Below, one piece after another: positions 18,931 through 58,483 of a stretch of DNA of 64,000 bases. Made by a program: the position numbers and the translations under genes. Position 1 is the stretch's first letter. Each line of letters starts with the position of its first letter. The notes beneath the pieces were generated by a model. The model did not search any database. It worked only from the letters and a program-made list of their open reading frames with translations, and was not told the origin of the DNA. Origin of the DNA: Hericium rajendrae (Eukaryota > Basidiomycota > Agaricomycetes > Russulales > Hericiaceae); the NCBI GenBank assembly GCA_033439255.1, contig CM065880.1, positions 2,666,001-2,730,000 on the forward strand, given 5' to 3'.

Positions 18931-19332
18931 TTCAGTTAGACAGAATTAATCTGCGGCTGTAGTAAGGCCTGACAGAATTAATCTGTCACCTTTAGGATTA
19001 GCCACATTACGGTTCAAACCGTAACACGATCTCCCACAGTAGTACAGATCAACTCGTAATGAAAGGTCCTGAGCCGCGTAGTCTAGCAAAACAATGTAGA
19101 GACCGGGAATCGAACCTAGGACAATTCACCGGTTCATCATGAATGTAGACACAACTAACCACTGAGCCAATGTGCTGTTGAAGTAAACATAAATCTATGT
19201 ATAATGAGTCGTTATTTCGCGAAAATTTCGACTTAACAACATTTCCGTGGGTCATAACCTGGACGGATACACTCGTAATTACAGCTTTATCTGTAAATAT
19301 CAAGTTAGTGAATTATAACCAACAAACAATAA
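18931..19332. repeat. left arm of the foldback element
   Basis: Inverted copy of 19437-19838; position x pairs with 38769 minus x throughout. Confidence 0.9.
19088..19176 (-). other. tRNA-like Pol III unit in left arm
   Basis: Mirror copy of the right-arm unit: box B at 19106-19116 and box A upstream on the minus strand, followed by a TTTT stop signal. Not a functional tRNA gene, because no acceptor stem can form. Confidence 0.6.
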
Positions 19333-19436
19333 AGGTATAAATTACAGATACATCTGTCAAGACAGGTATATCTGTAAGAACAGATGTATCTGTCAGTATT
19401 AGCTTTGAAAGTTGTGTCCATAGGTTTTCTTCATTA

Positions 19437-19838
19437 TTATTGTTTGTTGGTTATAATTCACTAACTTGATATTTACAGATAAAGCTGTAATTACGAGTGT
19501 ATCCATCCAGGTTATGACCCACGGAAATGTTGTTAAGTCGAAATTTTCGCGAAATAACGACTCATTATACATAGATTTATGTTTACTTCAACAGCACATT
19601 GGCTCAGTGGTTAGTTGTGTCTACGTTCATGATGAACCGGTGAATTGTCCTAGGTTCGATTCCCGGTCTCTACATTGTTTTGCTAGACTACGCGGCTCAG
19701 GACCTTTCATTACGAGTTGATCTGTACTACTGTGGGAGATCGTGTTACGGTTTGAACCGTAATGTGGCTAATCCTAAAGGTGACAGATTAATTCTGTCAG
19801 GCCTTACTACAGCCGCAGATTAATTCTGTCTAACTGAA
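19437..19838. repeat. right arm of the foldback element
   Basis: Inverted copy of 18931-19332. Outer tip CTGTCTAACTGAA, inner end TTATTGTTTGTT. Confidence 0.9.
19593..19681 (+). other. tRNA-like Pol III unit in right arm
   Basis: Box A TGGCTCAGTGG (19600-19610) and box B GGTTCGATTCC (19653-19663) match eukaryotic tRNA promoter consensus, 42 bp apart. A TTTT terminator follows at 19678-19681. A T-arm with one mismatch and a central hairpin (GTTCATGATGAAC) can form, but the acceptor stem cannot. It looks like a tRNA-derived SINE head, not a working tRNA. Confidence 0.65.
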
Positions 19839-22956: not shown

Positions 22957-24110
22957 ATGTCGCCCACCATACACACCGCCGACGTCATGCTCTCCGTCAC
23001 AGAGCAATTCACGTGAGTAGCCTTCCCGTTTCCTGCGTATTGGACCTCAATTTTGACGCAGCGCGGCAGTATCTATCCCGAAATCGATCCTTCTAAAAAC
23101 TCCACCGAGAAGTCTTTCAAGGACAAAGTCGTCCTCATCGCCGGTGTCCCTCGCGGCATTGGAAAGCAGTATACCATCACCTGCGCGCAGGCCGGAGCCT
23201 CGTTCATCATCTCGGCATGCAACGCGAAGGCGCTGGACGATGTCAAGCAGGGTGTCCTGCGCGTCAGCCCGGCAACTGAATTGTCTGCGTCGTTGCGGAC
23301 ATGGCGGATGTCTAGCAAGTCGAGAGGGTCGTGAAGGCCGGTGTCAAACGCTTTAAAAAGGCTCGACGTTGTCATCAGCAACGCGGTAACGTTCATTGAC
23401 TGGGATGCATTTTGCCCTTCGTAGAGTCGGTCATTGATTATTCATATGTATACTAGCTCTCGGCGAGCAGGATCCCGTCATGGTCGGGCACGCTCGAAGT
23501 CAACCTCCGAGGTGTGCACTTCCTCGCACAGTTCGTCCTTCTACTTCTGCTGGTCATCAATCCACGACACTGATCGCGCTCTGCTATCCAGCTACACATT
23601 GCCGCACCTCATGAAGACCGACGACTACTTCCTCACCATGTCGTCCATGAGCGGCATGATACGCATGGTGAATGGCAGTTCATACTGCATGTCCAAGCAT
23701 GCAGTTAACCGCTTCATCGAGTTTGTCACACTGGGTGTGACCTATATCCTCGTCGAGCACGATGTCCTCTGACGCTGGTTCTGGTTGTCAGAGTACCCTA
23801 CCGTCAAGGCCTTTGTGATCCATCCTGGGGTAATCGCCACCGATGCGCATGCAGAAAACGATTTCCCGGCGGTCCACGAGATCGGGTTATCTATGGCCAC
23901 GACGATGCATCCTACCTCCGATAATGCTGATTGGTTCTCCGGAAGGCATGTCTGGATTCCAAGTACATCAATAAGTGCCCGCTGACTGTTGTTCATGTAT
24001 GTAGGTTTATCTCGGCGCCGTGGGACCTGGACGAGGTCCGCGAGCCGTGGAAGGAGAAATTTGAGAAAGAGGCGGGTCTCGTGAGCAAGCTTTCATTCCA
24101 GTTCAACGAT
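22957..24110 (+). pseudogene. short-chain dehydrogenase pseudogene (SDR paralogue A)
   Basis: Homologous along its whole length to the intact SDR genes at 25071-26233 and 35203-36303, with the same N-terminus style (MSPTIHTADV) and most of the same intron positions. The nucleotide-binding motif has changed from TGASRGIG to AGVPRGIG. In the Rossmann exon one base is lost near 23285, an in-frame TAG stands where the paralogues read AAG near 23313, and one base is gained near 23355. The catalytic YCMSKHA motif survives further down. The C-terminus runs past the paralogues' stop. Three frame lesions in one exon make this a dead copy of a dispensable oxidoreductase. Confidence 0.8.
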
Positions 24111-24971
24111 ACGTCTTTGTGGGTTGGATATCTCCTTTTCCTAGCTCCGTTGCATGCGGGGTCGATCGTCAGGTGTGCAGTTGCAGTAGTTTTATTCATC
24201 GACACTCTACTTCTCTGTCGTTCAGCATATAGCATATGCCAATGGAACACATTAACAACGACAGGAAGGGCGGGCGGTCGAAAGCCAAAGAGGGAGCCTA
24301 AGACTTCTCACAGATCCTTCCAGAGCTTTTAAGCGATTCCATCGTCTGGGCACCTGACCACTCTTCAGCGCGGCAAAACAGCTTTTGCAATGACAAGCTG
24401 CGCTTCTTGACGCACCCATCCGACGGAACTGGCAATGCTGCCTTGATAACAAGTCTACGGCTTGACTGACCCTGGTGCACCATACATCCCCTCTTCAATG
24501 TCTCTCTAATTAATATATTATATATTTTGTTCATGATCACAGAACTTCCACACTTCACTCTTTACATTTTCAGGCTTAGGCGCCATACAATGTCTAGTCG
24601 GCCGAAGTAAGCGTCTAAGACTGCATTGAGCTCGTCAATGAACCTGTCGCCACGCAACAATTACTCAGGATTCTCATGATGAGCAGCTCCTATATCCGCT
24701 CCGTGGTTTCCCTTTGTCACTAACACCGACTAGCACCGAATTCACCAAGAGACTTTCCGGGTCCCAATGCTGCTCCCCATGTTCCGCTTACATTGTGATC
24801 ATACAAGTTCGACCCTGTTCCGTCAACTCTGTTCAACCTTATCGATTTATCCGAGAGCTTTGGTCTGGAGCGGCTTGATTCTGATTACCGGCGGCAGATC
24901 CTTGAACGTGAACTTCTTTTGCATCCTTTCATGTATAGTATGCGGCGCCGTTACGGCAGGGTGAGACAGGC
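24111..24971. other. intergenic region between SDR copies
   Basis: About 860 bp. No gene recognised; an AT-rich patch at 24505-24530. Confidence 0.45.
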
Positions 24972-24977: not shown

Positions 24978-25070
24978 GGCAAGCCCTTATTGTGTTAAAC
25001 AGAGCAGTCCTATTCACCCATCAATTATACAGCCGGCAGCTTGGCAGTAACAGCAACCTCAACAGCAAGA

Positions 25071-26233
25071 ATGTCCCTTGCCAACCGCACTGTCGAAGCA
25101 GACCTCCCGGTCACAGAGCGATTCGAGTATGTCTTACCTCTGTGTATGATACATGTTATATTGACACCGGGCGGACAGTGTCTATCCAGAAATCGATCCC
25201 TCCAAGCACTTCGCGGACAAGACGTACAAGGGAAAAGTTGTCCTTATCACTGGCGCATCCCGCGGCATTGGCAAAGAGTTTGCCATCGCCTACGCCAAGG
25301 CTGGAGCTGCGCTGGTCCTCTCGGCTCGTAACCAGAAGTCGCTGGATGACGTCAAAAGGGACATCCACGCCATTGATCCTGCGACAGAGGTCGTGAGCGT
25401 CGTGGCGGATGTGGCGGATGTCAAGCAAGTTGAGGCGGTCGTGAAGGCGGGCGTCGACCGGTTCGGGAAGCTTGACGTGGTTATTGCTAATGCTGGGATA
25501 GTGCTTGACTGGAACGAGCGTGGGTCTTTTGCAGTGTCTGATGTTTGGTGACACATTCATCGTCTAACTGTCTATTAGCCATCGCCGAGCAGGACCCCAA
25601 CGCATGGTGGAGCGTCTTTGAGGTCAACCTCCGTGGTGTTCACTCTCTGGCACAGTTCGTCCTTTCTGCATCTGGAAACCGTTAATGCGCGATGCTAATT
25701 GCTTTTCTATCCAGCTTCGCACTGCCTCACCTCGTCAAGACCGACGGATACTTCGTCGCGCTGTCGTCCGGCGCCGCTCAGTTCCGCGCTCCGAACGGCA
25801 GCTCATATTGCGTGTCCAAGCACGCAGTCAACCGATTAATCGAGTTCATCGACATTGGTAATGCTTGGATCCTGACCGTGCATGACGCTGGTCTAACTGT
25901 TGACTTTGTTGTCAGAATACCCCGACGTCAAGACATTTGCGGTCGCCCCTGGCATAGTCCAGACTGACATGAAGGTGCAGGGCGGCTTCAAGCCTCTGCA
26001 TGCAATAGGGCTGCCTGTGGCTACGATGATCTATCTTACCTCTGGTACTGCAGACTGGCTCTCCGGAAGGTACGTCAACTTTCAAAGAAGATCAACGAAT
26101 CCATCTTAAACGTCCTGCGTGCGTGTATAGGTACATCTCGGCGCCGTGGGACCTCGGAGAGGTCCGCCAGCTGTGGAAGGACAAGATTGAAAAGGAAGGG
26201 GCACTTGTGAGCAAGCTGGCTATCCCTACATAA
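25071..26233 (+). CDS. short-chain dehydrogenase/reductase (SDR paralogue B)
   Basis: Six exons (25071-25126, 25179-25519, 25579-25654, 25715-25857, 25916-26069, 26131-26233) give 290 aa. The cofactor motif TGASRGIG (about residue 50), the NAG motif (VVIANAG), a catalytic Ser in the strand before the active site and the YCVSKHA catalytic Tyr-Lys pair are all present, so the enzyme should be an active NAD(P)-dependent oxidoreductase of classical SDR type. The substrate is unknown. The first exon encodes a short pre-Rossmann tail ending VTERFD. Paralogue C (35203-36303) has the same length and intron positions except the last; paralogue A is dead. The ATG at 25071 was chosen because it matches the paralogues' N-termini; an in-frame ATG at 25041 is less likely. 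Confidence 0.93.
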
Positions 26234-26341
26234 AGATATGATTGTACTACAGTAGAACATAAACTTGGAGATGGATATTTTGCAAAAAACTGAATAAAAC
26301 TTGAGATGGAGGCTTTTAATGGACCCTAACATTACCAAACA

Positions 26342-26364
26342 ACGCGGTCATCACCTGACCGCGT
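26342..26364. promoter_or_regulatory. inverted repeat ACGCGGTCA-5-TGACCGCGT upstream of ureG
   Basis: A perfect 9-bp inverted repeat with a 5-bp spacer, about 160 bp before the ureG start. The same GCGGTCA half-site forms an inverted pair at 2120-2187 before another gene. It could be an operator for a dimeric regulator or an rho-independent-like hairpin for the preceding gene; the first fits better in a eukaryote. Confidence 0.4.
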
Positions 26365-26522
26365 CTAATATCGCGCTTATCTCAAGTTCTTATCAGTGCC
26401 ATTTCAAGCCTCGTCGTCTTTTGAGATTGTGCGTTACAACGGCGGAGGGGCTTTGAATCAAACACATCCGCCGACCCCCAGCATCTACAAAAAACGCGAA
26501 GCTAAGTAAAGTATTCGCAGAA

Positions 26523-28334: not shown

Positions 28335-28734
28335 CTATACCCAGCGCAATGCAATTCCCTTCGACCGTAAAAGCTCTGTCCACTTCTTCCTATAAGCCTT
28401 CAAAATCACCTCTTGAGAGCATCCAAGAAGGCGGATCACACTCAGACTCGGGAGGTCTATAGCCGTGACGACGTCCAACATTCGTGCCAAATGGTCCATA
28501 GGACGAAATTCGGGCCTAATCGAGCCTGAGACGCCATAACGCGACGCTGCGAGCATCCGCGCCGTCTCGCGACTGAGATGAATGGCAACGCAGGTGATAG
28601 ACGGGTGGTGCAGATTATGTTCATTGAGGTGCTTCGGGTATGTGTAAACCTCAGACAGCTCCAGGTAAAGCTCGACGAGGAGCGGGAAGCGGGCGAGAAG
28701 CCGAAAGCAGGATATGAAATGATGTGGGTGGTAT

Positions 28735-29221
28735 TGTAACGGACGATAGAGGTCGAGCCGCTACTGCCCGGGAAGTCCAAGGTAGGCGAGCGAGTGAGGA
28801 GGGTATAAAGGTGTCGTAGACCTCCTAGAGAGAGTCCACGAGCTAGAGCTAACAGAACCGAGGATGCCTCAGTCCTGCAGCCAAGCAGATGAGTGATGAG
28901 CTGGCACCTCCTCTGAGGGCCAGCAGCAGATATAGACCTCCTGATGAGGGTTTTGGGGGCCACACACCTTCCTTTGAGGGTTGGATCCCAAGAGAACCTT
29001 TCAGATATGAGGAGAACAAGCAGAGACTGAGACAAAAGCAGACAGGTAGTGGTGAGTTGGCAAGATCGATGCTTATTCCCAATAAGGAAATCCGCTCTAA
29101 GTACATGATTCAAACTCAGCTATCCTAATAAGGAAACTCTGCAAAACTCGAAAAGTAAGCCAGGTAGAAAAGAGTAAGAAAGTAGAAGACTATAGTAGTA
29201 ACTGATAAACCATCCGTTACA
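28735..29221 (-). repeat. 3' LTR (left copy)
   Basis: 487 bp, TGTAAC...GTTACA. Almost identical to 33395-33881. Confidence 0.92.
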
Positions 29222-32200: not shown

Positions 32201-33394
32201 AGCAAGTTTCGAAGGAATAGAAGAAAATTTGAAGGAAATACAGTGAAATTTCGCTTCAGAGGGAGGATGAGGAGAGCATGAAGATATCTTGACAACCGCT
32301 GGAGCGCTTGAGACGTTCTTGGGCTCATTCGAAAGCGTTTGCGAAGGCGAAGAGGATGGTGGAGTGGTTTAAGGAGCACGGGCAACGTACAAAGCACGAT
32401 TTGCGTCCAAAACCTCCCTACATCGCCTGACAGAGCCTGATCTCAGCGATCTACAGCCCCCCCAGCCTCCTGGACTTGAAGCGAGGTGGAAAGCGTTTAA
32501 AAAGCGAATAGGATACAAAAGAAACCGAGGGAATCCGTCCAGAAATGAGAGAGTTAGAGAGGGGGTGAACTACCAGGCTCCCTGACCCTCTCCTCGGCAT
32601 GGGAGTTCTCGAGGTGAGGCCCTGTTGATAGGGCGATGAAGCGAAGCATCTCTATGAGGACTAGAGATGCATATAGAGCCCTCCAAGCAGCCAGAATTGG
32701 GCCGAAGGAGGAGCTGGAGGCAGGGAGCTGCCCAGAGGAGGAGGAGGCCTGGAATGGCCGAGCGAGTCTTGCGTCGACAGACAGTGGCCGGAGAACACAT
32801 GGGACATGTTCTGTGCGAAGGTAGAGAGCTCCTGGGACTGCCAGGGACATGGATTCCACGTCCCTGAGGTCCTCAACTCGAGGAGGAGGAGGAGTCCTGA
32901 TGGCAGGAGGAAGAGCACCTGCATACCGGAATAGGATATCGACACCTTCGGCAACTCGTGCCTGCAATGTGCGCCAGGCCCAGCGAACGTCCCAGGGAGA
33001 TGGTGACCCATGGAGACAGGAACAGAGAACGAGATCCCTGTCGACCATAAAGACAGAACTCGGGGGGTATGGCAGGCAAAACCCAACTTGATCGAGCAAC
33101 GATTGAAGTTGCTCGATGACCTCTAAGGCAAAGTGGAGCAAGGGCTCCCTGATCCGAAACTGATGGGCTCGGATACCAAGCCCATTGTCGACAAGATCAC
33201 TGTCGACAAGGGAATGAGACCGGAGAGCAAGAATGCGGCTCTCCAGCGAATGGCGATAAGACGACTTGACATCATCACTTGAGATAAGGAACCTGGACAT
33301 GGATGCCACGTCCAGGGAGAGGGGAACTGAATGAGACATGTGAAGTCCTCACCAGCCAGCCAGAGACAAGTGGACTTCCGGATGTATCCACCTT

Positions 33395-33881
33395 TGTAAC
33401 AGACGATAGAGGTCGAGCCGCTACTGCCCGGGAAGTCCAAGGTAGGCGAGCGAGTGAGGAGGGTATAAAGGTGTCGTAGACCTCCTAGAGAGAGTCCACG
33501 AGCTAGAGCTAACAGAACCGAGGATGCCTCAGTCCTGCAGCCAAGCAGATGAGTGATGAGCTGGCACCTCCTCTGAGGGCCAGCAGCAGATATAGACCTC
33601 CTGATGAGGGTTTTGGGGGCCACACACCTTCCTTTGAGGGTTGGATCCCAAGAGAACCTTTCAGATATGAGGAGAACAAGCAGAGACTGAGACAAAAGCA
33701 GACAGGTAGTGGTGAGTTGGCAAGATCGATGCTTATTCCCAATAAGGAAATCCGCTCTAAGTACATGATTCAAACTCAGCTATCCTAATAAGGAAACTCT
33801 GCAAAACTCGAAAAGTAAGCCAGGTAGAAAAGAGTAAGAAAGTAGAAGACTATAGTAGTAACTGATAAACCATCCGTTACA
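33395..33881 (-). repeat. 5' LTR (right copy)
   Basis: 487 bp, same ends. Flanked on its right by the GGTAT target duplication. Confidence 0.92.
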
Positions 33882-34842: not shown

Positions 34843-35202
34843 GGTTACGTCAGTATTTCCTTATTTAGTAGCTTTTTATAGCTCCGGTAAGCCCTAACCC
34901 TTAGCCCTGAACACTGCAGAGTACTTGTCTGTTGCTTGTCTATCTCCCATCCGGTGAAATTTGTGTGCGTCGGCGACACGCTCTGCTAGAACTTGAAAAG
35001 TTCAGAGACATAAGTCTTTTCACGTTTTCATGAATGATACTCAGATGACAGCTGGCTACTTCTCCAGAAAATGGATCAATCAACAAAGATCCTGCGGATC
35101 ACCGCATTCATGTTCGAAGTTTCGAGTTATAAGCACTCAACATTCAAAATCTATGTCAAATATTCTACCAAGCTTCTAGATTTCTCAAGTATGCCCAAAC
35201 CG
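34843..35202. other. intergenic region between F-box gene 2 and SDR gene C
   Basis: 360 bp serving as 3' region of SDR C and promoter of F-box gene 2. No repeat or further gene seen. Confidence 0.45.
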
Positions 35203-36303
35203 TCAGGCGGGGATGGCAAGCTTGCTCACAAGAGCCCCTTCCTTCTCGATCTTCTCCTTCCACACCCGGCGAACCTCTCCGAGGTCCCACGGCGCCGAGA
35301 CATATTTTCCAGAAAGCCAGTCAGCATTGCCGGAGGTGAGGTAGATCGTCGTAGCGGTAGGCAGCGCCATCTCATGGATTGGCTTGTAGCCGCTCTGCAC
35401 ATTCATGTCGGTGGCGATCACGCCGGGATGGAGCGCAAAGGCCTTGACGTTGGGGTATTCTAGCGACCGGGAAAAACGTCAGACTACGTCGTGCTGAACT
35501 ATAGCACGAATTTACCAAGCGGGATGAACTCGACAAAGCGGTTGACCGCGTGCTTGGAGATGCAGTAGGAGCTTCCCTTCGGGATACGCATGAGGCCGGC
35601 TGCGGAGGACACTGCGACGAAATAGCCGTCCGTCTTCGCGAGGTACGGCAACGTGAAGCTAGACAGTGAAGCGGCATCAGGATCATGCATCGATGGCCAC
35701 CAAAAGGAAGACGAACTGAGCCAGCGAGTGCACGCCCCGGAGGTTGACCTCGAATACACTCCACCATGCGATGGGATCCTGCTCGCCGATGCCTAACATA
35801 CACGAATGAATGATTGATGTACCACAAATTGCAAGATGAAAGTCCACTCACGCCCGTCCGGATCAATGAGCTTCCCGGCGTTGGCGATGACAACGTCAAG
35901 CTTTCCAAAGCGGTCGACTCCCGCCTTCACGACCGCCTCGGTCTGCTTGACGTCCGCGACATCAGCCACGACGCTCACGACCTTGGCGGCGGGGTCGACG
36001 CGCAGGATCTCCTGCTTGACCTCCTCCAGCGACTTTTGGTTGCGCGCAGAGAGGACGAGGGAGGCTCCAGCCTTTGCATAGAGGATGGCAATCTCCTTGC
36101 CAATGCCGCGGGAGGCACCGGTGATGAGCACCACCTTGTCCTTGTAGGTCTTGTTGGCGATGTGCTTGGAAGGATCGATTTCAGGATAGACACTGTCCGT
36201 GGGGTGTCAAAAAAAAAATCAAAGGCGCAATGCAAGATAGCACGCACTCGAATCGCTCCGTGACTGGGAGGTCTGCATCCTGGATGAAAGTGGTGGGAGA
36301 CAT
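35203..36303 (-). CDS. short-chain dehydrogenase/reductase (SDR paralogue C)
   Basis: Five exons (36248-36303, 35852-36192, 35717-35792, 35516-35658, 35203-35459) give 290 aa, exactly the length of paralogue B. The TGASRGIG cofactor motif, VVIANAG and the catalytic YCISKHA motif are intact. Intron positions and phases equal those of B except that the last intron of B (before YISAPW) is absent here, with the reading frame running through SGKYVSAPWDLGE. This is intron loss in C or gain in the A/B line; A also has it. The start ATG lies 86 bp downstream of a TATA box. Likely an active NAD(P)-dependent oxidoreductase of unknown substrate. Confidence 0.93.
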
Positions 36304-36388
36304 GCTGCTGGTGCTGTCGATCTACTGGCTGGGAGAGTGAAGAAAATGTGGGATTGTTCGATGCATGAACACGACCATCCGGCTGGCC

Positions 36389-36394
36389 TTTATA
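36389..36394 (-). promoter_or_regulatory. TATA box of SDR gene C
   Basis: TATAAA on the minus strand within GGCTATAAAGGC, the same context as before SDR gene B. Confidence 0.65.
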
Positions 36395-37107
36395 GCCTGG
36401 CTCGTCGCCCCGTCTCGCCTGCCTGGCCTTGAGGCGCTGGTGCATATTGGTCGGACGAAGGTAATTTCGGCTGACTGATACAAAAGAAGTTGGAACTGCC
36501 CCTTGAATTGGTAAGAAAGGAGACCAAGCCGCATCAATAAGCAAACAGATACACCCTCACAGATGCAAATGCGCGGACGCTGATAGTAAGTGCACAATAA
36601 GTCCTTCGATAGATTGGCAACCAACTGAACTTGCATGATTATGAAGCGCGTTATTGGGAGTAGTAGGAAGGTCTCTTGGTGGACTCGGTTCCAGTAGTCT
36701 CCTTAGCTGACCTCGGACGGAAGACAATCGTTCTGTCTATTGATAGTCGGGTTTACGATGCATAGACCCGATGGCGACGCGTAACACATATTTGACTTCT
36801 CTCTATGCGGGATTGTTCCCAGCGTCTAAGCTGAGTAATCTGTCGTCTGGAGAGCGCTGGACCGTCGAGGCTAATAGATGCAAACGAAGGCGTGATGAGT
36901 GTAGGATAAGGTCTCATGCGATCGATGATAAGAAATGCTGGTAGGCGCTGCAATATTCAGTCGATGAATCAGTCGAACTGAGTGTCAAACGGATGTACAA
37001 ACTGCGGTGTCCCAAGGACGACGACTGAACGCAAACATGCGTGTACGCGCACATGCAGGCTGTGTGAAGAAAATCGAGTACGAAGGCGTGCACAGAATGA
37101 GCGGACC
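36395..37107. other. intergenic region
   Basis: Between the SDR C promoter and the 3' end of the tyrosinase gene. No gene or repeat recognised. Confidence 0.45.
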
Positions 37108-42379: not shown

Positions 42380-45290
42380 TCAAGATGCAGCTGAACTGCG
42401 TTGCAGATCGACAGAGCGCGGAAACCAGCCGCCGATTTCCCAGTTGGAACCACTGTGGTATTCGTCCTGTCTGCGCTGTTTTCGTCGACAACACCGTGAA
42501 GGATAGTGTTCAGCCTCCCAAAGTCGATCGATAGGCTTCAAAATCCAGCCATCGACGCCAATAGATTGCAGCTCATGCTGTTGACGTTCGAGCAGAGATG
42601 CCGATACCATGAAGATGGGCATCCGGCCGTTCAAAGAATGCGAGAGGCGTTGACCTGTAGGCGAGGACGATGACGCCTCGAACTTTCGGATGCGTAGCTT
42701 CGAAGCCATTTAGGATGGGCATCCTGAAGGCAGATACGCGAATCAGTACCCTGAGTAGCAGATACAATGCCGGTACCTACTGGACGTCCATGAGGATACA
42801 ATCGAAGTCTGGATCTTCTAGTACTTTGTCCACGCCTTCTTGGCCGTTTGTTGTGCTGACCACGGTGTGACCATCCAGCGACAAGCGTTTCACTAGGATC
42901 ATGCGATTGATGTCGTTGTCCTGTTGGATTAAATGTCAACATCTCAATCTTAGAACCATGACTTGACTCGTTCTTACCTCGACGATCAACACCCTAAGTT
43001 TGAGGTCACGCGGGTTCTTATGTCCGGCCTTGGGAGGCATCACAATATTCTTCTCTGCAACAAGCGGTCGAGTTGTTGTGTCCAGTTTCTCAGGGAAACC
43101 AAGAGCTTTGGCTTGAATCTGCGTGCCGAAGTCAAACTCGTCTTTCTTCACTGGCCGTAGAAGTGTCCCCATGCCAGTGATAGGGATTGTCCCAGGTACA
43201 GACTCAGGAGAACTGGAATGCCTGACCTGAGTAGGACCAAGAGCACCGAGCATTGTCGACAGGGCATCGACGAGGTTGTCCACCTCGCGGCTGCTACTCG
43301 AGCCACGGCTGCTTGTCCTGTGCCGAGGCGAGAGCTGCAAGGATGATGGCGAAGGATATTCGCTTCGGTCCCAGAGAAAGAAAGGAATCAGGAATGAGAA
43401 CCGACTGCCTTCGTCCACTTTGGAATCCACCTGCAGCTGTCCTCCCAGCTGCTCTACAATCCGCGCTACCACAGCCAAACCGAGACCTACATGGAATATG
43501 TCAGTGGCTAGAACTATCGGTATCAGAGAGACTCGACGAACCCTGACCAGGAGCAGTACTTGTCTTGGGCAGCGCCGATTCAACTTGCTCGAATGCTCGG
43601 AAGATTCTTTCCAGTTTCGCAGCCGGGATACCGCAACCCGTATCGCCAACGATGATTTCGACAGCGACTTGTTTCACATTTCGAAGGCCCTCTGGTTCTT
43701 CAAACGTCCTGCAGATTATCTCAAGAGAGGCCGTCTGCGTGTATTTCACTGTGCAACAAAATGAATGAAGGTCAAAACAAAGCATAAATGAATACTGACA
43801 GGCATAAGCAGTCAAATTAGCGACCACAGTGCGGATCTTGTTCGAATCGCCAACGACCGTGCCCGGACTGCCGGAGGTATCAGGCTTGAATTTCAAGCCT
43901 CTACGGATCGCCTCGGTTCTGTAGAGGTTCGTAGCATCTTCAATGATCGAGGGCAGATCAAACAGCTCATGGAAGGATGTTTCATTCCCGCTCTCCAGGC
44001 GAGTGAGGTCCTGAGATATTAAAGTTAGCTTTAAAAGACCGCAGTCTCATCGAAAAACTCACCAAAAGATCGTTGATAGTGAAGAACAAACTCTGTATAG
44101 CAGCACATCAAACACCCTTAACATAGTAAGCCACCGAAGAACGGCCAGCGTACCTTCGATGCTGCATGCGACTTGTTCAGATTTTCGCGTGTTTCAAGAT
44201 CCAGTTTGCCGTTGAGAGCCAGCTCAAGACAGCTGTAACAACTAAGTTGAGAAGGGACCCGACCACGTCAGAGTACAAACACTCACTTGATGATGTGGTT
44301 TAGGGGCGTCCGGACTAAAAGCGAAGCAAACATCAATATATACTCCCTGGGCTTCCCCCGCAGTAAATACTCTACCTTCATGGCCAGCATTGGCCAGCAG
44401 GAGGTTTGTCAGTTTCTTAGTCTGCAAAGCGCTTTCTTTTTGCCTCCAGACTTCGATAAACTGTGTGAAGGTTAATCGGATACCTGCAGCATTACCAAGA
44501 CGGAAAACTGACCTTTCCATACACCAACGCCAGAACACCCGCCGTCTCCACCTGCTCGTCCGTCCATGCCCTGCACCGCCCCGCAACCGTCTCTGACCAG
44601 ACTCTAAACGACTTCCTCGGCTCGAAGGTCGCCTTTCCTCCCGCACCGTCCTTGTACGGCTTTCCAGCCCAGCGCCCAGCTCACGGCTGGCCCTTACGCA
44701 GAAATGCGATAAAGTCGCATCTATCCGACGAGAGCGGCACGTATAGCAGGTCCGCGATGATCTCGAGCCCCGTCGAGAGCTGCAAGTCGGGGAAATCCTT
44801 TGTCACGGCTTGTGAGATCTGGATCATATCGAATTGTTTCAGTCGCAGGTATTCAGCCATGACGAGCACCTCCTGGCCTGCTGGTTTGGCCCGAGGATCT
44901 TGGCGCCCTCGCCGATGACAAGGACGCCAAAGTCAGCATCGAATAAGCCGAGCAGGTCGTTCGCGTTCGAAACGATGTACACTGTGGGGTGCGCGCCTGA
45001 TGTTATGGTATTGAACTGCATAAGATGGCGATGAGCATCAGGATCAAATCTGAATAATACTGTAGGCGTACTAGTTTACGGATATGCAACTGCTGTGCGT
45101 AGCTGAGCCGCTCCATATTTCGGGATATCGAATCGCTGAGAAGCCGAAGCATTTGACGGACAGGGAACGAGACGCGAATGCCATGAACACCGTAAGAATG
45201 ACATGCGACCAAACCCCATAGCTGCCCGAGATCTTTAGAGCCCTGGTCGCTACTGCCCCGAGTCTGGAGGCGAAGACAAGTTGGCATAAA
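42380..45290 (-). pseudogene. fungal phytochrome, C-terminal block (end of GAF, PHY, histidine kinase, receiver)
   Basis: Encodes the rest of a phytochrome that starts on blocks at 50490-52541. Order on the minus strand: end of the chromophore-binding GAF domain (LWGLVACHSYGVHGIRVSFP); PHY domain (LLGLFDADFGVLVIGEG, LSTGLEIIADLLYVPLS); histidine kinase with H-box GHEVRTPLNHIIN, G-boxes VGDTGCGIP and GLGLAVVARIV; receiver with VLIVEDNDINRMILVKRL and ILMDVQMPILNGFEAT. A base seems lost in the PHY region near 44873, a TGA interrupts the frame near 44690, and the receiver end shifts frame near 42685 and again near 42530. Upstream of 45240 the exon is degraded. The block has no start of its own, so it is a pseudogene part. 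Confidence 0.85.
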
Positions 45291-45420
45291 CGAAGATTAG
45301 CTGACCGAGAAGAAGAAATATTAGCAATAGAATCAAGCTTCCAAAATGACGTTGAGGGCGGACCCTCCAAGAAGATCGGTGCGCGCCGCGGCAGCTGCAA
45401 TTGACCATGAACCTGCGTGA

Positions 45421-45963
45421 TCACGGTGTGTATTGCGTGTATATTATTGAAGAGGATGTGATTTTACCGCACCAGGGATGGTGACCGATGCCTCTGAAGC
45501 TGGTTTCTGCGTTTTGTTCGTCTATGGGATCGGAGTGATGAGGATGGGTATTGAACGGCACTTTTGGAATTGGGAGCATAGGACGGACTGGATATGAGAC
45601 TCGCAATATGTATACCATGACGGATGAGCAAACATCGTATATGAGAAGCGTAGGAGGCAGAACTTGAAGCCAGTCTTTCAAACGTACCAATTCCAAGTCG
45701 AAGTTCCAGTTTGTGCGAAGTTCAAGCGCCCGACGAGACGCGGTCACGTGGTGCAGAACAAAAGACGCGCCTTTGACGCGCCATGGCTTTTCTGAGTACA
45801 CCGTGAGCCAGGAAGGAGTGATGCCTATTTCTCCAAGTCTCGACGGACGACCGATATCCGTATTCATGAGTTTATTTATTCGAGTAGCGCGGACACATGT
45901 AAGTAAGACAACAACAAAGTATAGTATGCAGACGCGAGCCATGTACATAACAACATTCAACAA
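45421..45963 (-). CDS. 180-codon ORF of unknown nature
   Basis: An open frame with protein-like composition (LGEIGITPSWLTVYSEKPW, then NWNFDLELVRLKDWLQVLPP). I recognise no family, and it does not match phytochrome. It lies between the phytochrome C-terminal block and the HMG-box gene, at a likely rearrangement breakpoint, so it may be a gene fragment brought in by the event. A membrane-like N-terminal stretch (YMARVCILYFVVVLLTC) may be chance. Low confidence. Confidence 0.25.
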   Translation of the reverse strand: MLNVVMYMARVCILYFVVVLLTCVRATRINKLMNTDIGRPSRLGEIGITPSWLTVYSEKPWRVKGASFVLHHVTASRRALELRTNWNFDLELVRLKDWLQVLPPTLLIYDVCSSVMVYILRVSYPVRPMLPIPKVPFNTHPHHSDPIDEQNAETSFRGIGHHPWCGKITSSSIIYTQYTP

Positions 45964-46073
45964 ACGACGTGCTCGAGCAGGGGTAACATGTGCAGTAGGT
46001 ATAGTAAGTGACCATGGGATAACTAAGAGAATATGCGAGACAGAGGTAAAGAGCGTGCGGGCCTAGACTGCTC

Positions 46074-47366
46074 TCACACTGGAGAGTCGTACTCGTCGAC
46101 GGGGTCCCACGACGCCAGAGGCTGGTCCATCTCAGCCAGGAAGGCGTCGACGTCGCCAGAGAGGGAGACGGGCAGCTCATATTCCCCGACGTGGATGTCC
46201 ACGTTTTCAGCCGGCGCAGGGGGGGCGATAAGAGCCGCAGGCAAGACGGGAGTCGGAGGAGCTGCCGCCTGAGGCTGGATTGCGATAACAGCCGCGGCGA
46301 AGACGGGAGTCGGAGGGGCAGCCGCCTGAGGCTGGATAGCGAATGGAAGGCGGGGGCCCGCCGGCGGGGGCATCGGCGCGAAGCCCGTCTGACCAGCAGG
46401 CGGGGAGAAGAACTGCGGGTCGGTACGATGCTCGGGATAGGTGGGTGCTGGCAGACCCGGGTATGCGGGCTGGGGGACGATCGGCCTAGAGATCTGCAAG
46501 GGGCCCGGCTGGCCAGCAGGCGGGGAGAGGAATCGCGGGTCGTAACGATGTGCGGGATAGGTGGGTGCGGGCAGGCCTTGGTATGCGGGGTGGTATGCGA
46601 TCTGCTGATGCAGCTGCGAGGGGCCCGGCTGGCCAGCAGGTGGGAAGAATTGCAGGTCGTAACGACGTGCGGGATAGGTGTCGGGCAGGCCTAGGTATGT
46701 GGGGTGGTAGGCGGTCTGCTGAGACATCTGCGAGGGGCCCGGCTGGCTAGCAGACGGGGCAATGGACTGAGGGTAGTGACCAGCTGCGGGGTAGGCAGGA
46801 GCGCTTGGGTATGCAAAGGAGCGACCGGTCGATGGGGGCATCTAGGGAACGGATGAGACAAGATAGAGATGAATGAAGAAGGGGCGTACCTGGCATTGCA
46901 CACCAGGCTGATAATAGCGAGAGGGAACACCGCTAGGCAGAGCTGCCATGGGCGACGATGGAGGGTGCGATGGAGCAGGATCCGACTCGCGTCGGCGTGG
47001 TTGCGATTGCGACCCCGCCGCCTTGGGCCCTTCAACATTCCCCGCCTTCTTAGGGGCCGCCTTCTGCTTCGGCGTGGGGTGATACCTGTAGCCCGGATGG
47101 TCGATCAATTGCTGCGCTTTGAGCTGCTGGAACTTCTCATCCCAGGGGGCTTTGTCCTCCTTGCTCAGCGCATGCCACAATTCGCTCATGATTTTAGACA
47201 AGACCTTTTGCGACAGCGCACGGCCCTTGTCATCGACGCGCACCAGGGTGGTACCACTGACATTTCCATGGATCAACGCCGTACGGTATAGGAAAAAGCT
47301 GTTGGGAACCCGCTTGATGTGGCCGTCATCTTTGTTCTTCGAAGATTTGACACGGTCCACTGGCAT
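46074..47366 (-). CDS. HMG-box (MATA_HMG-like) transcription factor with Pro-rich repeats
   Basis: Two coding exons (46890-47366, 46074-46841) give 414 aa. The start at 47366 follows a likely 5'-UTR intron. Residues ~12-95 form an HMG box of mating-type style: HIKRVPNSFFLYRTALIHG, then LSKIMSELWHALSKEDKAPW and HPGYRYHPTPKQK, with a short insertion (GTTLVRVDDKGRALSQK) in the middle. This fold bends DNA in the minor groove. A basic, Ser/Pro-rich linker follows, then about four tandem repeats of ~36 aa (core AYHPAYQGLPAPTYPAHRYD), two QPQAAAPPTPV repeats and an acidic tail (DVDAFLAEMDQPLASWD) that looks like an activation domain. No pheromone, receptor or homeodomain gene is nearby, so a mating-type role is not supported. 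Confidence 0.85.
46385..46800 (-). repeat. coding minisatellite in the HMG-box gene
   Basis: About four tandem units of ~105-110 bp encode the Pro/Tyr/Gln-rich repeats. Units differ by a few residues and short indels, always in multiples of three. Confidence 0.65.
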
Positions 47367-48384
47367 GCTGTGATCAGGGAGGGTGGTTAATAAGGTGAAG
47401 GACAAAGTGGGATAGCGGGCTTACTTCGATAATGAGATAACACGTGAGGCAATGTGTCAAAGCGGGGAGCTGGGGACGAGAATGAAGAGAGGAAGAAGGC
47501 AGAGAGGACGCCGTTAAATAGCGCTGCACTGGCATTCAAATGTTTTGCCGAGGCCTCTTTGCTTTGGAGCCTGCTGAGACATTGGATCTGAAAGACATCA
47601 GTTTAAGCGAGCCTCAATGTTGCGATTATGTACATGAGGTAGGTGGACTTGCAAGTCTACTATTGTCGACCGTTATGCCGTAGTGCCTCCGAATCCGCGC
47701 TATGTTGCCGATAGCACAAAGGCCGACTGATCAGTCTCTATTCCCCATCATCTGTATTGTGCGTACCTGGCGTGTCGGCCGACTCACAAGTTGCTGCCAC
47801 GCCCGTAACCTAGTCTCTGCTTACGAAGCACATAATGTGGTTTGTATCCCAGAAGAAGTCTATTTTCTTTGCATATAACGCAAATAGCAGACAGAGCGGT
47901 GGAACGTACGTCTGAGCTGAAAGAAAACGGAGCAGTGTGAGGCAAACCTAGCCTCTGTAGATGTGCCTCTCATTATGCTCCTTCATAAAGTTAGCCAATG
48001 ACAACAAAGCTCAGCGGAGAGATTCACCTCCGGAGGAGCAAATGCGTGCAATTCGTGGCTACAGCGGCATCTCTACATCAGCACGGCGCTTGGGCTACGC
48101 AATATTGCCTCAACGACACGTCGTCTGTGGCCGCGGAGTGAACGCGCTAAGCATCCGATCGGCTCGCCACGATCAACGATGAGATTACATGTAAAATGCA
48201 GATGACAAAAGAAAGGGCCGGGCTGACAAACCTTCTGGGAGCCGAAATGTCACAAAGCAAATTAGCCGAACGACAATGGCGGATGCTCAAAGCATCTCCG
48301 AGGGCCGATGGTGCGGGACGGTAGAGTCGCGTTGCATAGCAACTAGCATGAGGAAACCCGCATTGTCCTCATGAGATGCGATTC
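47367..48384. other. intergenic region
   Basis: Promoter side of the HMG-box gene, about 1 kb. No gene recognised. Confidence 0.4.
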
Positions 48385-48926
48385 TAAGGCTGCGATCGGC
48401 AACGCGGTTGAGCGCAACCAGATTGCGGTTGACTACCATATATAGACGAATCTTACCTAGAACTGCTCTCGCAACCAGATTTGATACTGACCTGTTCGGC
48501 TGCACCAAAATCTGCAAAATCCGAACTGAGTGGCATTTCGGAGAACAAATAATCGGTAAGTGCCGCACGGCACGGTTCGGCCTCTACAACTACAAGATCA
48601 GTAAAAAGTATCTCATGGATGTTTCTTGGCAAAACAAAACAGGAGGATCATATTTATTTTATTTTTCAAGTTAATCAGTAGATTTTTGAGGTTGTACAAG
48701 AGGCATAGCAAGCACAGTAAATATGAAGAACTGGGGGTGCCAAGGGGGTGCACTATGGATTAGATGGATTGGGATCGGCATTGGCCCGGCATGGCCGGCA
48801 TGCCACCGGCATCACTGTAAGCGGCATAGCCACTGAACCGCGATCTAATACCAGTACCTTCCCACGCCAGAAAAGATACAGTATCTCAGAAATCGTATCT
48901 CAACCGCGTTGCCGATCGCAGCCTAA
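48385..48926. mobile_element. Harbinger-like MITE (536 bp, TAA target duplication)
   Basis: Exact 25-bp terminal inverted repeats, starting GGCTGCGATCGGCAAC, lie at 48388-48412 and 48899-48923. They are flanked by the 3-bp direct repeat TAA (48385-48387, 48924-48926). Three-base TWA target sites are typical of PIF/Harbinger elements. The interior has no transposase frame, so this is a non-autonomous miniature element. Perfect terminal repeats suggest recent movement or selection on the ends. Confidence 0.7.
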
Positions 48927-50489
48927 CACAATGAGCAGGCCGATTGGGCAAACGTTGACACCGGAGCTCGGGACTGGGACCGGCCGGCGGTCGAAATGGC
49001 CGGGTCGGGTTTTTTTGAACGCGTCATCACATTGACACTCGGTCTGATAGCCTACTCTGATAAACAGAAAAAGCAGTCACTTATTCTGCAGTCTGCTAGG
49101 CAGAATCATAGGTTTGATCTGCGGAAGGGGCAGTCAGTGGAGATGAAAAACTATCGGGAGAAAGAGAGGTGGGATCACTTTGAATTTGACGTACTTACTC
49201 GACGGCATTTATATTCTGCAAATCAGTGCGATTGTGCATCGATTGTGCATGGTCTCCATTCTGCTAGCTCAGACTGCGAGGCTCGCATGCTGAGCTTCAA
49301 GCTTCAGTGACCAGTGTCCGGGTGCTGACGGTCCAGGGCCGCGGACTTGCAGTCTCACTTCGATCGAGGCCTCCTTGTACCTAGGAGCATCCTATAAGCA
49401 AACAATAACGAGCGCTGAGCGTTCCAAGGAATTAGGCGGACTTACATACGTGCTATCATTTTCAGTTTGCAATCCGAGGCCTACTTGACTTCCTTCGTTC
49501 CTTCCGACGGCAGCCGAAGACTGCGTAGAAGCGTCCAAAACGCAGACGACGATGCCTATAAATGAGCCAAAACAGACGTACTTATGTCGACAAGGAGTGT
49601 TTCGATGAAGGACATCTGAAAGCAGCTCGATGTTCAAGAATTTGGATGATGGAAGCGCCAATAGAAGCACTGCGAGTGATGCAACTTGCAATCGGCCAAG
49701 TCGACAAAATCGCAGGACAAGCGCTGGCTTAGCCTAGCTGGCAGCCTCTGGCTCGCCGATGTCTTGACCTTGTTCTGGATGAGCACCCCCTCCATTCCTT
49801 TCTTACCTCACTCCATACACTGCGCCAGCACACTTCCGTCCTAAGGCTTTACCGTTTCCCCTTGGAATCCTGATCACCCACCCCATCTGTCTTCGATGGC
49901 TCCTCACAAGTGATCAGTAACTCGTCACCCATGCGGCCAAGATCCGCGATCCTCAGAATCGTTGAAAGCGCGATACTGCGTCTCACCATATCATGCATAT
50001 GCCCAAGCTGAATACGCTCCGACTTTGTGTGCGTAAATTTAATGCGCGAGGTCCCCGTGCTGTGACTCAGGCAGAGCTACTCGAGTAGACCCCGCCAGGC
50101 CGAGGAGGGCATGGGTGACGCGTGGATGCGACATTCATCGCTATCTTCCAAAGGTGCATATGCTCAGTTGTGTTCCCTGCTGGACGTCGAACGTTCTACT
50201 AACCTGATGGACCGCACATAGCTTCTCTCGTGCCCGTGGAGGAGTGGCCGACGCTCTGCGCTGCAAGTCCAAGGGCCAACCCTTATTCTCGCGCACCGTT
50301 ATCCATCGTACTGCGTTCTCCAGGTGCTTTTCAATGCCTGCCTTCCCTCCATCTTTCTTATCTATTAGCCATCCTACGCCCTTGCATACCCCGCCTGCTG
50401 CGCACATCGTTTCTTGAACACATTCTTATATCCACTCGAGTCCGTACCCTCTGCACGTACGTCTCAAGCCATGTCCTTCTCTGAATGTC
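48927..50489. other. intergenic region, possibly rearranged
   Basis: About 1.5 kb up to the phytochrome middle block. A minus ORF at 49392-49691 has a hydrophobic start but no recognisable family. No terminal repeats seen. Confidence 0.35.
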
Positions 50490-51712
50490 CCTTCGCATTG
50501 GCAATTTTTTTCCGGCTATACGGCGAAGAACTGCGACAAGGCTACGATGGACTGGAAAAAGCTCACAATCACTCGTCGAACAGGTAAGCAAACAACTCAC
50601 TATAGACATCGAAGAGCGCACACCCATATTGCTCAGGTCTACAGAAACGTGAGGTCGAGCGGGATGTCTACAACCCGCTGTATCCGTCGCCGTTGGCGGA
50701 GCATCATCATGTTCCTTCGGAGCTTTCCTCGCCTGCGAGCAATAGCGCCGCAAGCAACAGCAGCACAGATACCTCTAGAACGCTCGTGTCGGACTCAGGA
50801 AGGCTTTCTGATCCTGGTCTAATGTCTTCGCTGACCATGACAGATATGCGCGCCAGCTCGACCGCGTCAGACGCTTCGGCGCAGATTGCGGTGTCACGCG
50901 CATCACCTGAAGTCGTTTCGCCTACGCCTCACGCACTTTCGTTGCAGAACGTGAAGGGCCTCGAAGGCGACGACGAGTGGACGCCAAGTGCCGAGGCCAT
51001 TCCGGAGAGCACCACGAACCACGCGGAGCCGCTTCTCGCTGTGGAGCGCATCCGCAAAATGAACCGCCCTTCGCTGTCCACCTCGCCCTCCAGCGACGGA
51101 TCTGGCACGCACTCGCGCCGCGGCGGACGGCGCGGGCCTGCGCGTGGCCTGAGCATCGGGATGATGGATGTGTTCGCGGTGATGGCGCGGATCAACGAGC
51201 AGCTCGCCGCCGCCGACTTGGACGCGTTCCTGAACGTCGTCGTCGGCGTGATCAAGGACCTGACGCATTTCCACCGCGTGCTGCAGACGGTCGCGGAGCT
51301 GGTGGACTGGAGTCAGTCGCACGATCTGTACAAGGGGCTGCATTTTCCGGCTTCGGATATCCCTGCGCAGGTAGGCAGCATAAATTTTAATGAGTTGTGT
51401 TTGGCGGTCTGGCTTATGTCTTGTTGTCAAGGCGCGAGAATTATACACGACCAGTAAGTTTTCGTCGCATTTGTTGGGCATTGGATTCGAGTCTCTTGAC
51501 ACTTGAATTTCATCGATAGATAAGATGCGTCTGCTATACGATCGCGAGCAAAAGACGGCACGTATTGTTGTGCGAAACAAGCAGGATCTCGAGACTCCAC
51601 TGGTTGGTGTCCTTGCGTTTGTCGTGCGAGCGAGTCTGATTGGATTGCTTTGGCAGAACATGACTCACTGTTATCTGCGCGCCATGAGCCCGATCCACCT
51701 CAAATGTAAGCC
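50490..51712 (+). pseudogene. fungal phytochrome, middle block (PAS-GAF linker and most of GAF), on the opposite strand
   Basis: Encodes the phytochrome part that should lie between the blocks at 51740-52541 and 42380-45290, but on the plus strand. Frame: KREVERDVYNPLYPSPLAEH, a long Ser-rich linker, GMMDVFAVMARINEQLAAAD, VVAELVDWSQ-type sequence (TVAELVDWSQSHDLYKGL), the chromophore-domain motif GLHFPASDIPAQARELY (split by an intron), MRLLYDREQKTARIVVRNK, and MTHCYLRAMSPIHLK. It ends at a GTAAGC donor at 51713; the next exon of the gene (start YLAN in relatives) is not here but appears on the minus strand near 45290. Splice sites look intact within the block, so the break is structural. Confidence 0.85.
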
Positions 51713-51739
51713 TGCTCGCCGCTGTCCATTTCGGCGCCG

Positions 51740-52541
51740 TAGACACCAGGCTGCGCACTGCCGGGCTCGCCCCATCCACTGAGTGTAAACACGTGTGGAC
51801 TGTTGTCCTCGCTCTCCGAGTTATCCCTTTCGCCTGCGGAACCGTCCTTGGTCCCACAGCACGTCGACCTGCGAGTCGGGGAGCATCTCGGTGAAGCACG
51901 GCAGCGAGAAGAGGTAGCGCGGGCTGAGGCCCAGGAGCTCAGTTGAGTTCTCTGAGACCTGGCGCACGATGAGGGTCTCGTCGTCGAGGTTCTCTTGCAC
52001 GGCGATGAGGATGCCGAAGCCCTGTACTGCGCCGGGCGTGCGGATAGGCTACAGACCAGGTGTTAAAGCAAGAGAAAAACGCTTCATCCTCGCAGCGCGC
52101 GAGGTTGCCCTCGCGCCCCACGACGATATGGTGCCCGTGGCCGTCATCCTTGTGTTCGAAGCGGAAAGTGACATACGGCTCTTCGCTCGTCTGGTAGCTG
52201 CTCGACAGGATCCGGATGCCGGTTTCGATGACACCTGGTTGGAAGGGTCGGACGACAGAACAGGCGAGGAAGATTACGGGGAAACCAGCGCGGACGAGTT
52301 GCCCGCGCCCGAGCTCGGTGCCAGCGAAGAGCGTCCACCGCTCCGATACGACACGACCGCGTGCTTCGAGCAGAGATGTGCGCTTCGATCGGATGACGAC
52401 ATGCCAGAGACTGAGCGGCCACTCGAAGAGCCATAGGTCACACTTGAGGAGTTGGAAGACGGGCGCGCGGGGAGGTGTACGATGCCTGTATCGATCACGT
52501 CGAGGCTCCCGCGCAGCTCCTGATCCCCGGTGAAAACCCAC
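51740..52541 (-). pseudogene. fungal phytochrome, N-terminal block (PAS domain)
   Basis: Carries the start of the phytochrome: a Ser-rich tail with DVIDTGIVHLPARPSSNSS, then EEPYVTFRFEHKDDGHGHH, and the PAS core GREGNLARCEDE, PIRTPGAVQGFGILIAVQ, RQVSENSTELLGLSPRYLF and LPDSQVDVLWD. Frame changes occur within the Ser-rich part near 52270 and after VLWD near 51855, where a few codons are missing; the frame then continues with HVFTLSGWGEPGSA. Coding similarity stops at about 51740, where it meets the oppositely oriented middle block head-on. Confidence 0.82.
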
Positions 52542-55925: not shown

Positions 55926-58483
55926 ATGATTTCCAACGGTTCGTCACTTCGAGCCTTCGCACCACCTCTTCCGGTGACCACGACTGCGCGGGACGGCGAC
56001 GACGAGGCTCACCCTACAAATGCGGATCGCCACGACTTTATGACCCTTTCCACGCCTGACGACTTGCACACCATCTCTTCTGCTCTCATGTCGTCGCCGT
56101 CAATCAATGGCTCGGCCAGGCCAACTGCAGCCGGCCAGCAAAATACCCAGGGAGATAATGCTGTAATAGAGGCGGCAGCCGTCCCGTCGAGCACCGCGTC
56201 GGCGACTGTGCGCGGTACGTCGAATAGAAACGGGCGTCGGAGGCGGACGTTATGGGTGGGTGCTGGCATTGTGCGAGACATTCGCGCTCGGGCACCCTGG
56301 TATCTCAGCGACTGGCGGGACGCGTGGAATTATCGTGTCGTGCCAGCAACCGCGCTGATATTCTTTGCCAAGTGAGTATCTTTAGTCCAAGTTTATCCGA
56401 GGACTTTTCTGCTCAATACACAGCTTACCTCGAAATAGTGTCCTGCCTGGGATTGCGTTTTCCCTAGATCTCATAGAGACTACCCAGCAATATGGCGTAT
56501 CTGAAGTCCTTCTCTCGTGATTCATGGCGGCATTTATATTCTCCATTTTCGGAGCCCAACCACTTTGCATTGCCGGAGTGACTGGTGTGTTCATCCTCCA
56601 ACATCATCTTCAAATACTAATGTGGCGCATATAGGACCTATCACGGTCCTCAACCAGACTATCTTCCATATTATAGAGAATCACCCCGATCCCCCTAATT
56701 ATTTACAGTTCATCGGCTGGGTCTACTTGTGGGGCGCCATCCTTCACTGGATCACCGCGCTCCTCAATTGTGTGTTAAACTTCCCGATTTATGTTCGTTC
56801 ATTCCCTCACCAGTCACAGGCTGCAACTTCCTCCGCTACGTGACCCTCTTCTCCTGCGATACCTTCGGCTTCTACGTTTCTTGGGTATACTTGCAATACG
56901 GTGTCCAGGTGACCACGCGCCAATTGACCGAGCCCGACTCCTCCGCGTCCGGCGCATTCGTCGCGATCATCCTCGCGCTGCTGATGGTCGTCACGTCCTT
57001 CCTCTTCCAGTCTGTCGCGCGCTCGCACCTGTTCCACCAGCACGTCCGCCGCTTCTGCGCGGACTATGGCATGCCCATCTCGCTCATCGCTGCCTCCGCC
57101 ATGGCGTACTGGGGCCGCTTCAACGCCGCGAACCCGGTGACGCTGCCTGTCAACGGCGCGTTCAAGGCGGCCAACGGGCGCGAGTGGCTGGTGCGCTTCT
57201 GGGAGCTGCCCGGCAAATGGGTCGGCATCGCTTTCCCGTTCGGCGTTGCGTTATGGGTGCTGTTCTTCTTCGACCACAACGTCTCGGTTCGTGGACAGCA
57301 GCTTTTTGAGGGCGATGAATGCTTATACTCGTTGACAGTCGCTCATGGCCCAGGGGGCTGCGTTTCCGCTGCGCAAGCCGCCCGGGTTTCACTACGACTT
57401 CTTCCTGCTCGGCATCACGACGTTCATCGCGGGCCTGCTGGGCCTGCCCGCGCCGAACGGGCTCATCCCGCAAGCACCGATCCACACAACCTCGCTCCTG
57501 GTGATGGGCCGTCCTCCCAAACGCAAAGATGAGGAAGACAATGTACAGCCTGCTGAGCCCTCGGAGAACGCCACGAAGCGGAAGTCGCGGCCTGCGTCAC
57601 TGCAGTCCGCTGAAAAAATGGATGTGACGGTCGAGCCTGACCCGGCGGCGACGCCGTGGCGCGAGGTGCCGGTCGCGGTCGTCGAGCAGCGCGTGTCGAA
57701 CCTCGCACAGGGCTCGCTGTGTCTTGTCATGCTGAGCGGGCCATTCTTGCACGTGCTACATTTGATCCCAAGAGGTGGGTAGCTCTCCGCGTAGCAAACG
57801 TCGCTCACCGTCCTCGTCCTCTAGGTGTGCTGGCTGGACTCTTGTACGTCCTTCCCGACTTCGCGTTTGGTTAGATCTGTGTCTGACTTTCGCCGTAAAG
57901 CTGGTACATGGGCCTCGACGCGCTGGCAGGCAACGGCATCACGCGCAAGCTCCTGTACTTCCTGACTGACCGCGCGTTCACGCCCGCAGACGAGCCGCTG
58001 CGGCACGTGCGCAAGTCGCGCATCCTGCTCTTCGTGGGCGTGCAGCTCGTCGCATTCGGCGCGACCATGGCCATAACGCAGACCATCGGTGCGTCCCTCC
58101 CCACGCATCCCGTCAGTGGCCCCCGCGCGGCCACTCGGTTCTATCGCCCACACACGCCGAAGCACACGCGGGGTGCGAAGGCGAAGAAGCTGCGATGACG
58201 CATCGCTCGCGGGCTGCGACGGGCTGCGTGTGCCTCTTTGCCTCCGCGCCGTGCCTGACCTGCCTGCGTCGTACAGCGGCCATTGGCTTCCCGGTCATCA
58301 TCCTGCTGCTCCTCCCGCTTCGGACGCTCGTCGTCCCGCGCCTGCCCTTCACCGACGCGGAGCTGGGCATTCTGGACGGGCCCACGGCGTCCCCGTTTGT
58401 AAGTACCCATGTGATGGGCCTGATAAGAGATTTCGCTGATCGGCCGCGTGCAGACGATGGAGTCGGTCGGCGGCATTTCTTGA
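55926..58483 (+). pseudogene. Bor1-type SLC4 anion/borate transporter, disrupted in exon 2
   Basis: Nine exons (55926-56371, 56440-56584, 56635-56769, 56820-57286, 57339-57774, 57825-57843, 57901-58088, 58277-58398, 58454-58483) encode ~660 residues of the SLC4 family, which exports borate across the plasma membrane in yeast. Family motifs include IETTQQYGVSEVLLS, FGAQPLCIAGVTGPITVLNQ, FFFDHNVSSLMAQG and GLPAPNGLIPQAPIHTTSL, with many membrane helices. An acidic/basic hydrophilic loop (PPKRKDEEDNVQPAEPSEN) lies between helices. Two lesions sit in exon 2: one base missing near 56461 (frame changes between PGIAF and LDLIETT), and an in-frame TGA at 56518-56520 where relatives have Ser. All other exons are clean. 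Exon 6 is a 19-nt microexon. Recently inactivated, or two local sequence errors. Confidence 0.82.

Follow-up and report, generated by a model that had tools for sequence, protein, structure and literature searches.

A probable dead phytochrome gene of Hericium rajendrae, broken by an inverted segment and an insertion

Do phytochrome-like sequences that lie on both strands of a Hericium rajendrae contig belong to one gene, and if so, what has become of it? The question is raised by a 64,000-nucleotide stretch of DNA (assembly GCA_033439255.1, contig CM065880.1, positions 2,666,001 to 2,730,000; hereafter the window, with positions counted from its first letter), for which an original prediction had proposed a single phytochrome in three blocks, the middle one on the opposite strand. 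Our analysis indicates that the locus at 42380-52541 is very probably a dead minus-strand gene for a fungal hybrid-kinase phytochrome (PAS-GAF-PHY-histidine kinase-receiver), now an old and multiply broken pseudogene. Ordered, non-overlapping matches to a phytochrome profile bear out the single gene and the reversed middle block, although the division into three proved incomplete, as a short fourth block on the minus strand had been overlooked (Table 1).

The profile was built from bacterial sequences. When genomes were scanned with the GAF piece, a single phytochrome, from Pseudomonas, was confirmed, and 200 genomes of its phylum were then searched. The PHY domain occurred in 24 of these genomes, at 31 loci, and the 24 loci with an open frame longer than 450 amino acids and the GAF motif were kept, giving a profile of 24 aligned rows (two of which are the same protein) and 764 positions; two scans for relatives among viral contigs confirmed none. 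We scored all 2574 stop-to-stop fragments of at least 12 amino acids from the six frames of the whole window against this profile. Six fragments exceeded 4 bits, every one inside the phytochrome locus, and they keep the profile order with zero overlap. The top scores in five shuffled windows were 3.8, 2.6, 1.8, 2.3 and 5.5 bits, and five of the six fragments are clear of these values. The sixth, of 12 residues, is not significant by itself because shuffled windows reach 5.5 bits; its support comes from the join tests described below.

Domain searches gave the same order. Pfam recognized PAS_2 (PF08446, E 1.7e-8, on 51824-52045), PHY (PF00360, E 3.5e-10), HATPase_c on two exons (about 2e-6) and, below the Pfam cut-off, Response_reg (E 1.7e-4). 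Pfam made no GAF call in the plus-strand block, where the GAF piece was detected by the custom profile and a PDB search instead. In the PDB search the GAF and end-of-GAF pieces matched phytochromes with best E values of 0.019 and 0.013, respectively, and the PAS piece matched best to 9jry (FiDCB, E 6.8e-4), followed by bacteriophytochromes at E 0.15 and weaker. The succession of PAS_2, GAF and PHY that marks a phytochrome is therefore present, and downstream of PHY lie a kinase, indicated by HATPase_c and by a spliced kinase half that scores 117 bits, and the sub-cut-off receiver. Motifs common to the locus and the bacterial references include C-E/D-DE before PIRTPGA, PASDIPAQ, SPIH..Y..NMGV and LWGL..C. 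A single continuous coding frame on one strand is lacking, being interrupted by the inversion, the insertion, a stop and frame changes. Blocks on both strands might also be expected of two distinct partial phytochrome copies in opposite orientation. The original prediction had proposed an overlap check of the blocks against this possibility; with the bacterial profile, the matched ranges do not overlap, and as the plus- and minus-strand pieces moreover meet codon-exactly, we consider two copies extremely improbable.

The exact meeting point of a single gene's pieces was found by scanning joins. The LSNMGVRSSMSI piece (minus strand, 50601-50636) adjoins the plus block on its left, and the pattern SP.H..Y..NMGV followed further on by W, which is present in 13 of the 24 reference rows and fails in 11, places this piece close after SPIH. 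Plus-strand ends at 51693-51720 were combined with minus-strand starts at 50624-50655, giving 896 joins, of which 589 were free of stops. The top join among the 589 was exactly 51705/50638, with 36.5 bits as against 4.8 bits for the plus strand as it now reads, and this junction falls within a codon. When the 5.3-kb gap was shuffled 300 times by mononucleotides, no shuffle contained a fragment that best matched profile positions 223-300 at 5.4 bits or above. On the assumption of zero base loss, the inverted segment is thus 50639-51705, and not the 50490-51712 first given for the plus block. At the second junction, from minus 51706 to plus 50639, GWGEPGS runs into QKREVERDVYNPLYP and stays in frame as judged by eye.

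Two other accounts of these ends were rejected. The splice donor predicted after MSPIHLK is excluded by the join scan; its GTAAGC is part of the minus-strand PAS block, read in reverse, and marks the inversion junction. A flip between inverted arms at TACA/TGTA was discarded by eye, as it leaves the conserved Y-L-x-N unrestored.

Following the minus strand past the first junction reveals the second rearrangement. After MSI come a 49-nt GT-AG intron and SIVALSQ, where the homology breaks off; it picks up again at 45221-45234 with (G)QLWGLVACHSYG, so that the exon coding SIVALS/GQLWGLVACH is split by an insert. The rejoined flanks score 58.5 bits, the best value among 4379 stop-free joins and to be compared with 44.7 bits without the short exon, and the rejoined exon is spaced as in references such as L001. 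Every top-scoring join of equal length implies an insert of 5309 bp, which lies about 100 bp from the inversion edge and whose site can be placed only to within about 14 bp. The scenario of a small inversion plus an insertion is thereby supported, with sizes of 1067 bp and 5309 bp in place of the predicted 1.2 and 5.2 kb; the breakpoint, however, does not fall in an intron as had been suggested, as the tested inversion junction cuts a codon and the insertion lies in an exon, about seven codons past the 49-nt intron.

CTGC is present at both ends of the insert and may represent a 4-bp target duplication, but the join at CTGC scores 54.4 bits, below the best value of 58.5. Beyond CTGC, the insert ends show neither terminal repeats, inverted or of the LTR type, nor any longer target duplication, by eye or among the matches listed (the best 20 of 32 direct and the best 25 of 38 inverted families). 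The HMG-box gene and the miniature inverted-repeat transposable element (MITE) that had been predicted between the blocks are both real, as seen from the PF00505 match and the 26-nt inverted ends. The second open frame of the HMG-box gene has no Pfam match. Its Pro-rich tail (46077-46841, minus strand) is made of in-frame tandem repeats of 114-120 bp.

Reversing both rearrangements does not restore an intact gene, in agreement with the additional frame lesions noted originally. Two lesions of the N-terminal leader, a frame change and a TAA at 52274-52276, were identified by eye only. Frame changes judged by eye also occur in PAS, near 51.86-51.80 kb, and in PHY, near 44.88 kb; neither the PAS piece in the second frame nor the PHY piece in the first gave a match to the bacterial profile, against which the remaining PHY piece scores -0.9 bits. 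At the GAF gap the consensus vYrFdedgsG is missing, and a defective intron, an in-frame stop in PHY, a substituted kinase residue and a frame-broken receiver complete the list (Table 1). As most of GAF lies reversed and part of its core is missing, PAS and PHY carry frame changes and the kinase ATP site has lost an invariant residue, the locus would not be expected to give rise to a working photoreceptor.

Table 1. Blocks, profile matches, insert contents and lesions of the Hericium rajendrae phytochrome locus (window positions)
Feature	Position	Strand	Profile positions	Evidence or remark
N-terminal block: Ser-rich leader, RCEDE, PAS (PIRTPGAVQGFG...)	51706-52541	-	34-77	PF08446, profile, PDB; start codon and upper limit provisional
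Inverted 1067-bp segment: putative end of PAS (LQKREVERDVYNPLYP), linker, most of GAF to MSPIHLK	50639-51705	+		
Short block: (Y)LSNMGVRSSMSI, 49-nt GT-AG intron (50552-50600), SIVALSQ	50531-50638	-		Profile, join tests
Insert, 5309 bp	45222-50530			Joined-flank score
C-terminal block: end of GAF, PHY, HisKA (HEVRTPLN), HATPase, receiver	42380-45221	-		10 GT-AG introns, 51-61 nt
Profile match	51905-52048	-	34-77	26.6 bits
Profile match	51206-51370	+	160-222	19.4 bits
Profile match	50601-50636	-	274-285	5.4 bits, 12 residues
Profile match	45078-45227	-	291-338	23.6 bits
Profile match	44531-44674	-	461-510	39.8 bits
Profile match	43380-43490	-	709-744	22.1 bits
Defective intron, 34 nt, GC donor, between RCEDE and PIRTPG	52049-52082	-		
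GAF: 10 profile positions missing in frame from HRVL to QTVAEL	51283-51284	+		Profile alignment; same gap in PDB search
In-frame TGA in PHY	44681-44683	-		
Tyr codon at invariant kinase N-box Asn	43804-43806	-		Asn in 24/24 reference rows (two are the same protein)
Receiver frame changes near 42690 and 42527, the latter with tandem TCGA	42524-42700	-		By eye
HMG-box gene in insert, two open frames, Pro-rich repeat tail	46077-47420	-		PF00505, E 4.5e-9 on 46842-47420; gene model by eye
MITE in insert, flanked by TAA on each side; perfect inverted ends of 26 nt	48385-48926			

The damage is unevenly spread. Splicing out nine GT-AG introns between 44680 and about 42575 leaves an open frame of 535 codons, and this 1.6 kb contains no lesion that breaks the reading frame, compared with about 9-11 elsewhere in the gene (counted by eye). 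A rough post hoc estimate puts the probability of such a contrast between kinase and sensor halves arising by chance at 0.003-0.008, with counts and coding lengths estimated by eye, which suggests at most that the kinase half decayed later or more slowly than the sensor half. The same open, lesion-free and well-scoring stretch might be taken to mean that the kinase-receiver half persists as a separate, light-blind hybrid histidine kinase. The Tyr in place of the N-box Asn argues against this, as does the broken receiver frame, which leaves the final part of the 535 codons outside the homologous frame, and we regard survival of the kinase as highly unlikely. We also consider very unlikely a succession in which the sensor half was destroyed first and the kinase core stayed longer under selection, forming a transient light-blind hybrid kinase before the receiver and ATP site decayed.

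Could the flip, the insert or both instead be misjoins in the assembly of a gene that is in truth collinear? At both junctions that can be tested with the profile, the old codons reunite without loss once the flanks are abutted, and such lossless rejoining is what a misjoin of a correct gene would leave; an unexpected stop in a nearby transporter fits this explanation as well. On the other hand, the inversion ends lack any inverted word longer than 8 bp, and the frame changes, stop, GAF gap and defective intron inside the three main blocks survive rejoining. The window contains no N characters, and of five neighboring genes checked by eye three are clean, one is a further pseudogene and one contains a stop. 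The methyltransferase gene at 40.3-41.6 kb reads through via GT-AG introns, and two paralogs that we take to be SDR-like (short-chain dehydrogenase-like) from their TGASRGIG motif (25000-26480, plus strand, and 35000-36420, minus strand) have open exons, with indels confined to putative introns. The lesions thus follow individual genes and are not uniform noise, although the transporter stop calls for some caution. An assembly error appears very unlikely to us. As expected of a pseudogene, the locus combines recognizable homology and disabling lesions with less damaged neighbors, 2 of the 5 also being lesioned.

Several observations nevertheless weigh against a dead, rearranged phytochrome gene. 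Some of the lesions could be local sequence errors, as two neighbors are damaged too: the third SDR-like copy (22900-24350, plus strand) is broken by indels of one and two bases and by a TAG in frame, and the Bor1-like anion transporter (PF00955 on 56699-57529) is readable save for an in-frame TGA at 56518-56520 (plus strand). The second inversion junction has no support from the bacterial profile, the best of 1896 joins reaching 1.3 bits outside the PAS range. Imperfect inverted matches of 16-20 nt occur farther out (e.g., 50049-50064 with 51855-51870), none of them at the inversion ends. As the references are bacterial, lesions in the fungus-specific parts (leader and C-terminal tail) and some of the frames were assigned by eye, and the rearrangement is read from one assembled sequence of one strain.

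Given a dead and rearranged gene, how might it have reached this state? Within about 100 bp of both inversion ends the longest shared inverted word is 8 bp and is not located at the ends. Because no long inverted repeat lies there, the 1067-bp piece was probably flipped in place via repair of two double-strand breaks. The insert was probably brought in by transposition or through the capture of ectopic DNA, and the small lesions would have built up once selection on the gene had ceased.

As dead genes go, the locus is ordinary but well preserved. Like unprocessed pseudogenes broken by inversion and insertion, it has retained introns, mixed kinds of lesion and a rearrangement in place; unlike them, its inversion is clean, with zero base loss required at the testable junction. 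Invertible DNA switches that act by site-specific recombination also flip a segment, and the frame kept at the testable junction is reminiscent of them. In contrast to such switches, the gene is broken elsewhere too, and no inverted recombination sites occur at the two ends, the words near them being 8 bp or shorter; a recombinase was not searched for.

Fungal phytochromes (Aspergillus FphA, Neurospora PHY-1/PHY-2 and those of basidiomycetes) share the order of PAS, GAF, PHY, histidine kinase and C-terminal receiver. The hybrid kinase and the shortness of the introns would by themselves point to a fungus, probably a basidiomycete. Compared with these the locus, as aligned to bacterial sequences, is non-collinear and has several broken domains, a GAF deprived of its consensus and no N-box Asn. 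Fungal phytochromes are described as combining a classical kinase with a receiver at the C terminus, and of the two ancestral types one is thought to have been lost in basidiomycetes (PMC4422448). Several phytochromes occur in some fungi (PMC10056346), and two putative phytochrome transcripts are reported from the polypore Cerrena unicolor (PMC6358801). A single dead copy therefore does not imply that the red-light sense is lost; if this were the sole phytochrome of the fungus, the locus would document such a loss. Titles and abstract openings yielded no report of a broken fungal phytochrome, which is not a claim of absence from print. The locus offers a cleanly mapped death of a fungal red-light receptor gene, in which the inversion ends and the insert length can be read from codon continuity alone. 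It also illustrates a trap, as short exon pieces next to an inversion are easily overlooked and an apparent splice donor may be a junction.

Rfam and tRNA scans of the whole window found nothing. A near-perfect inverted repeat at 18931-19838 (400 of 402 bases, 104-nt spacer) may be a fold-back element of recent origin or a product of the assembly. Two direct repeats, 28734-29033 and 33394-33693, are identical at 299 of 300 bases and lie 4660 bp apart. Finally, a 1015-amino-acid open frame at 14657-17701 (minus strand) with reverse transcriptase and RNase H belongs to an apparently intact retroelement.

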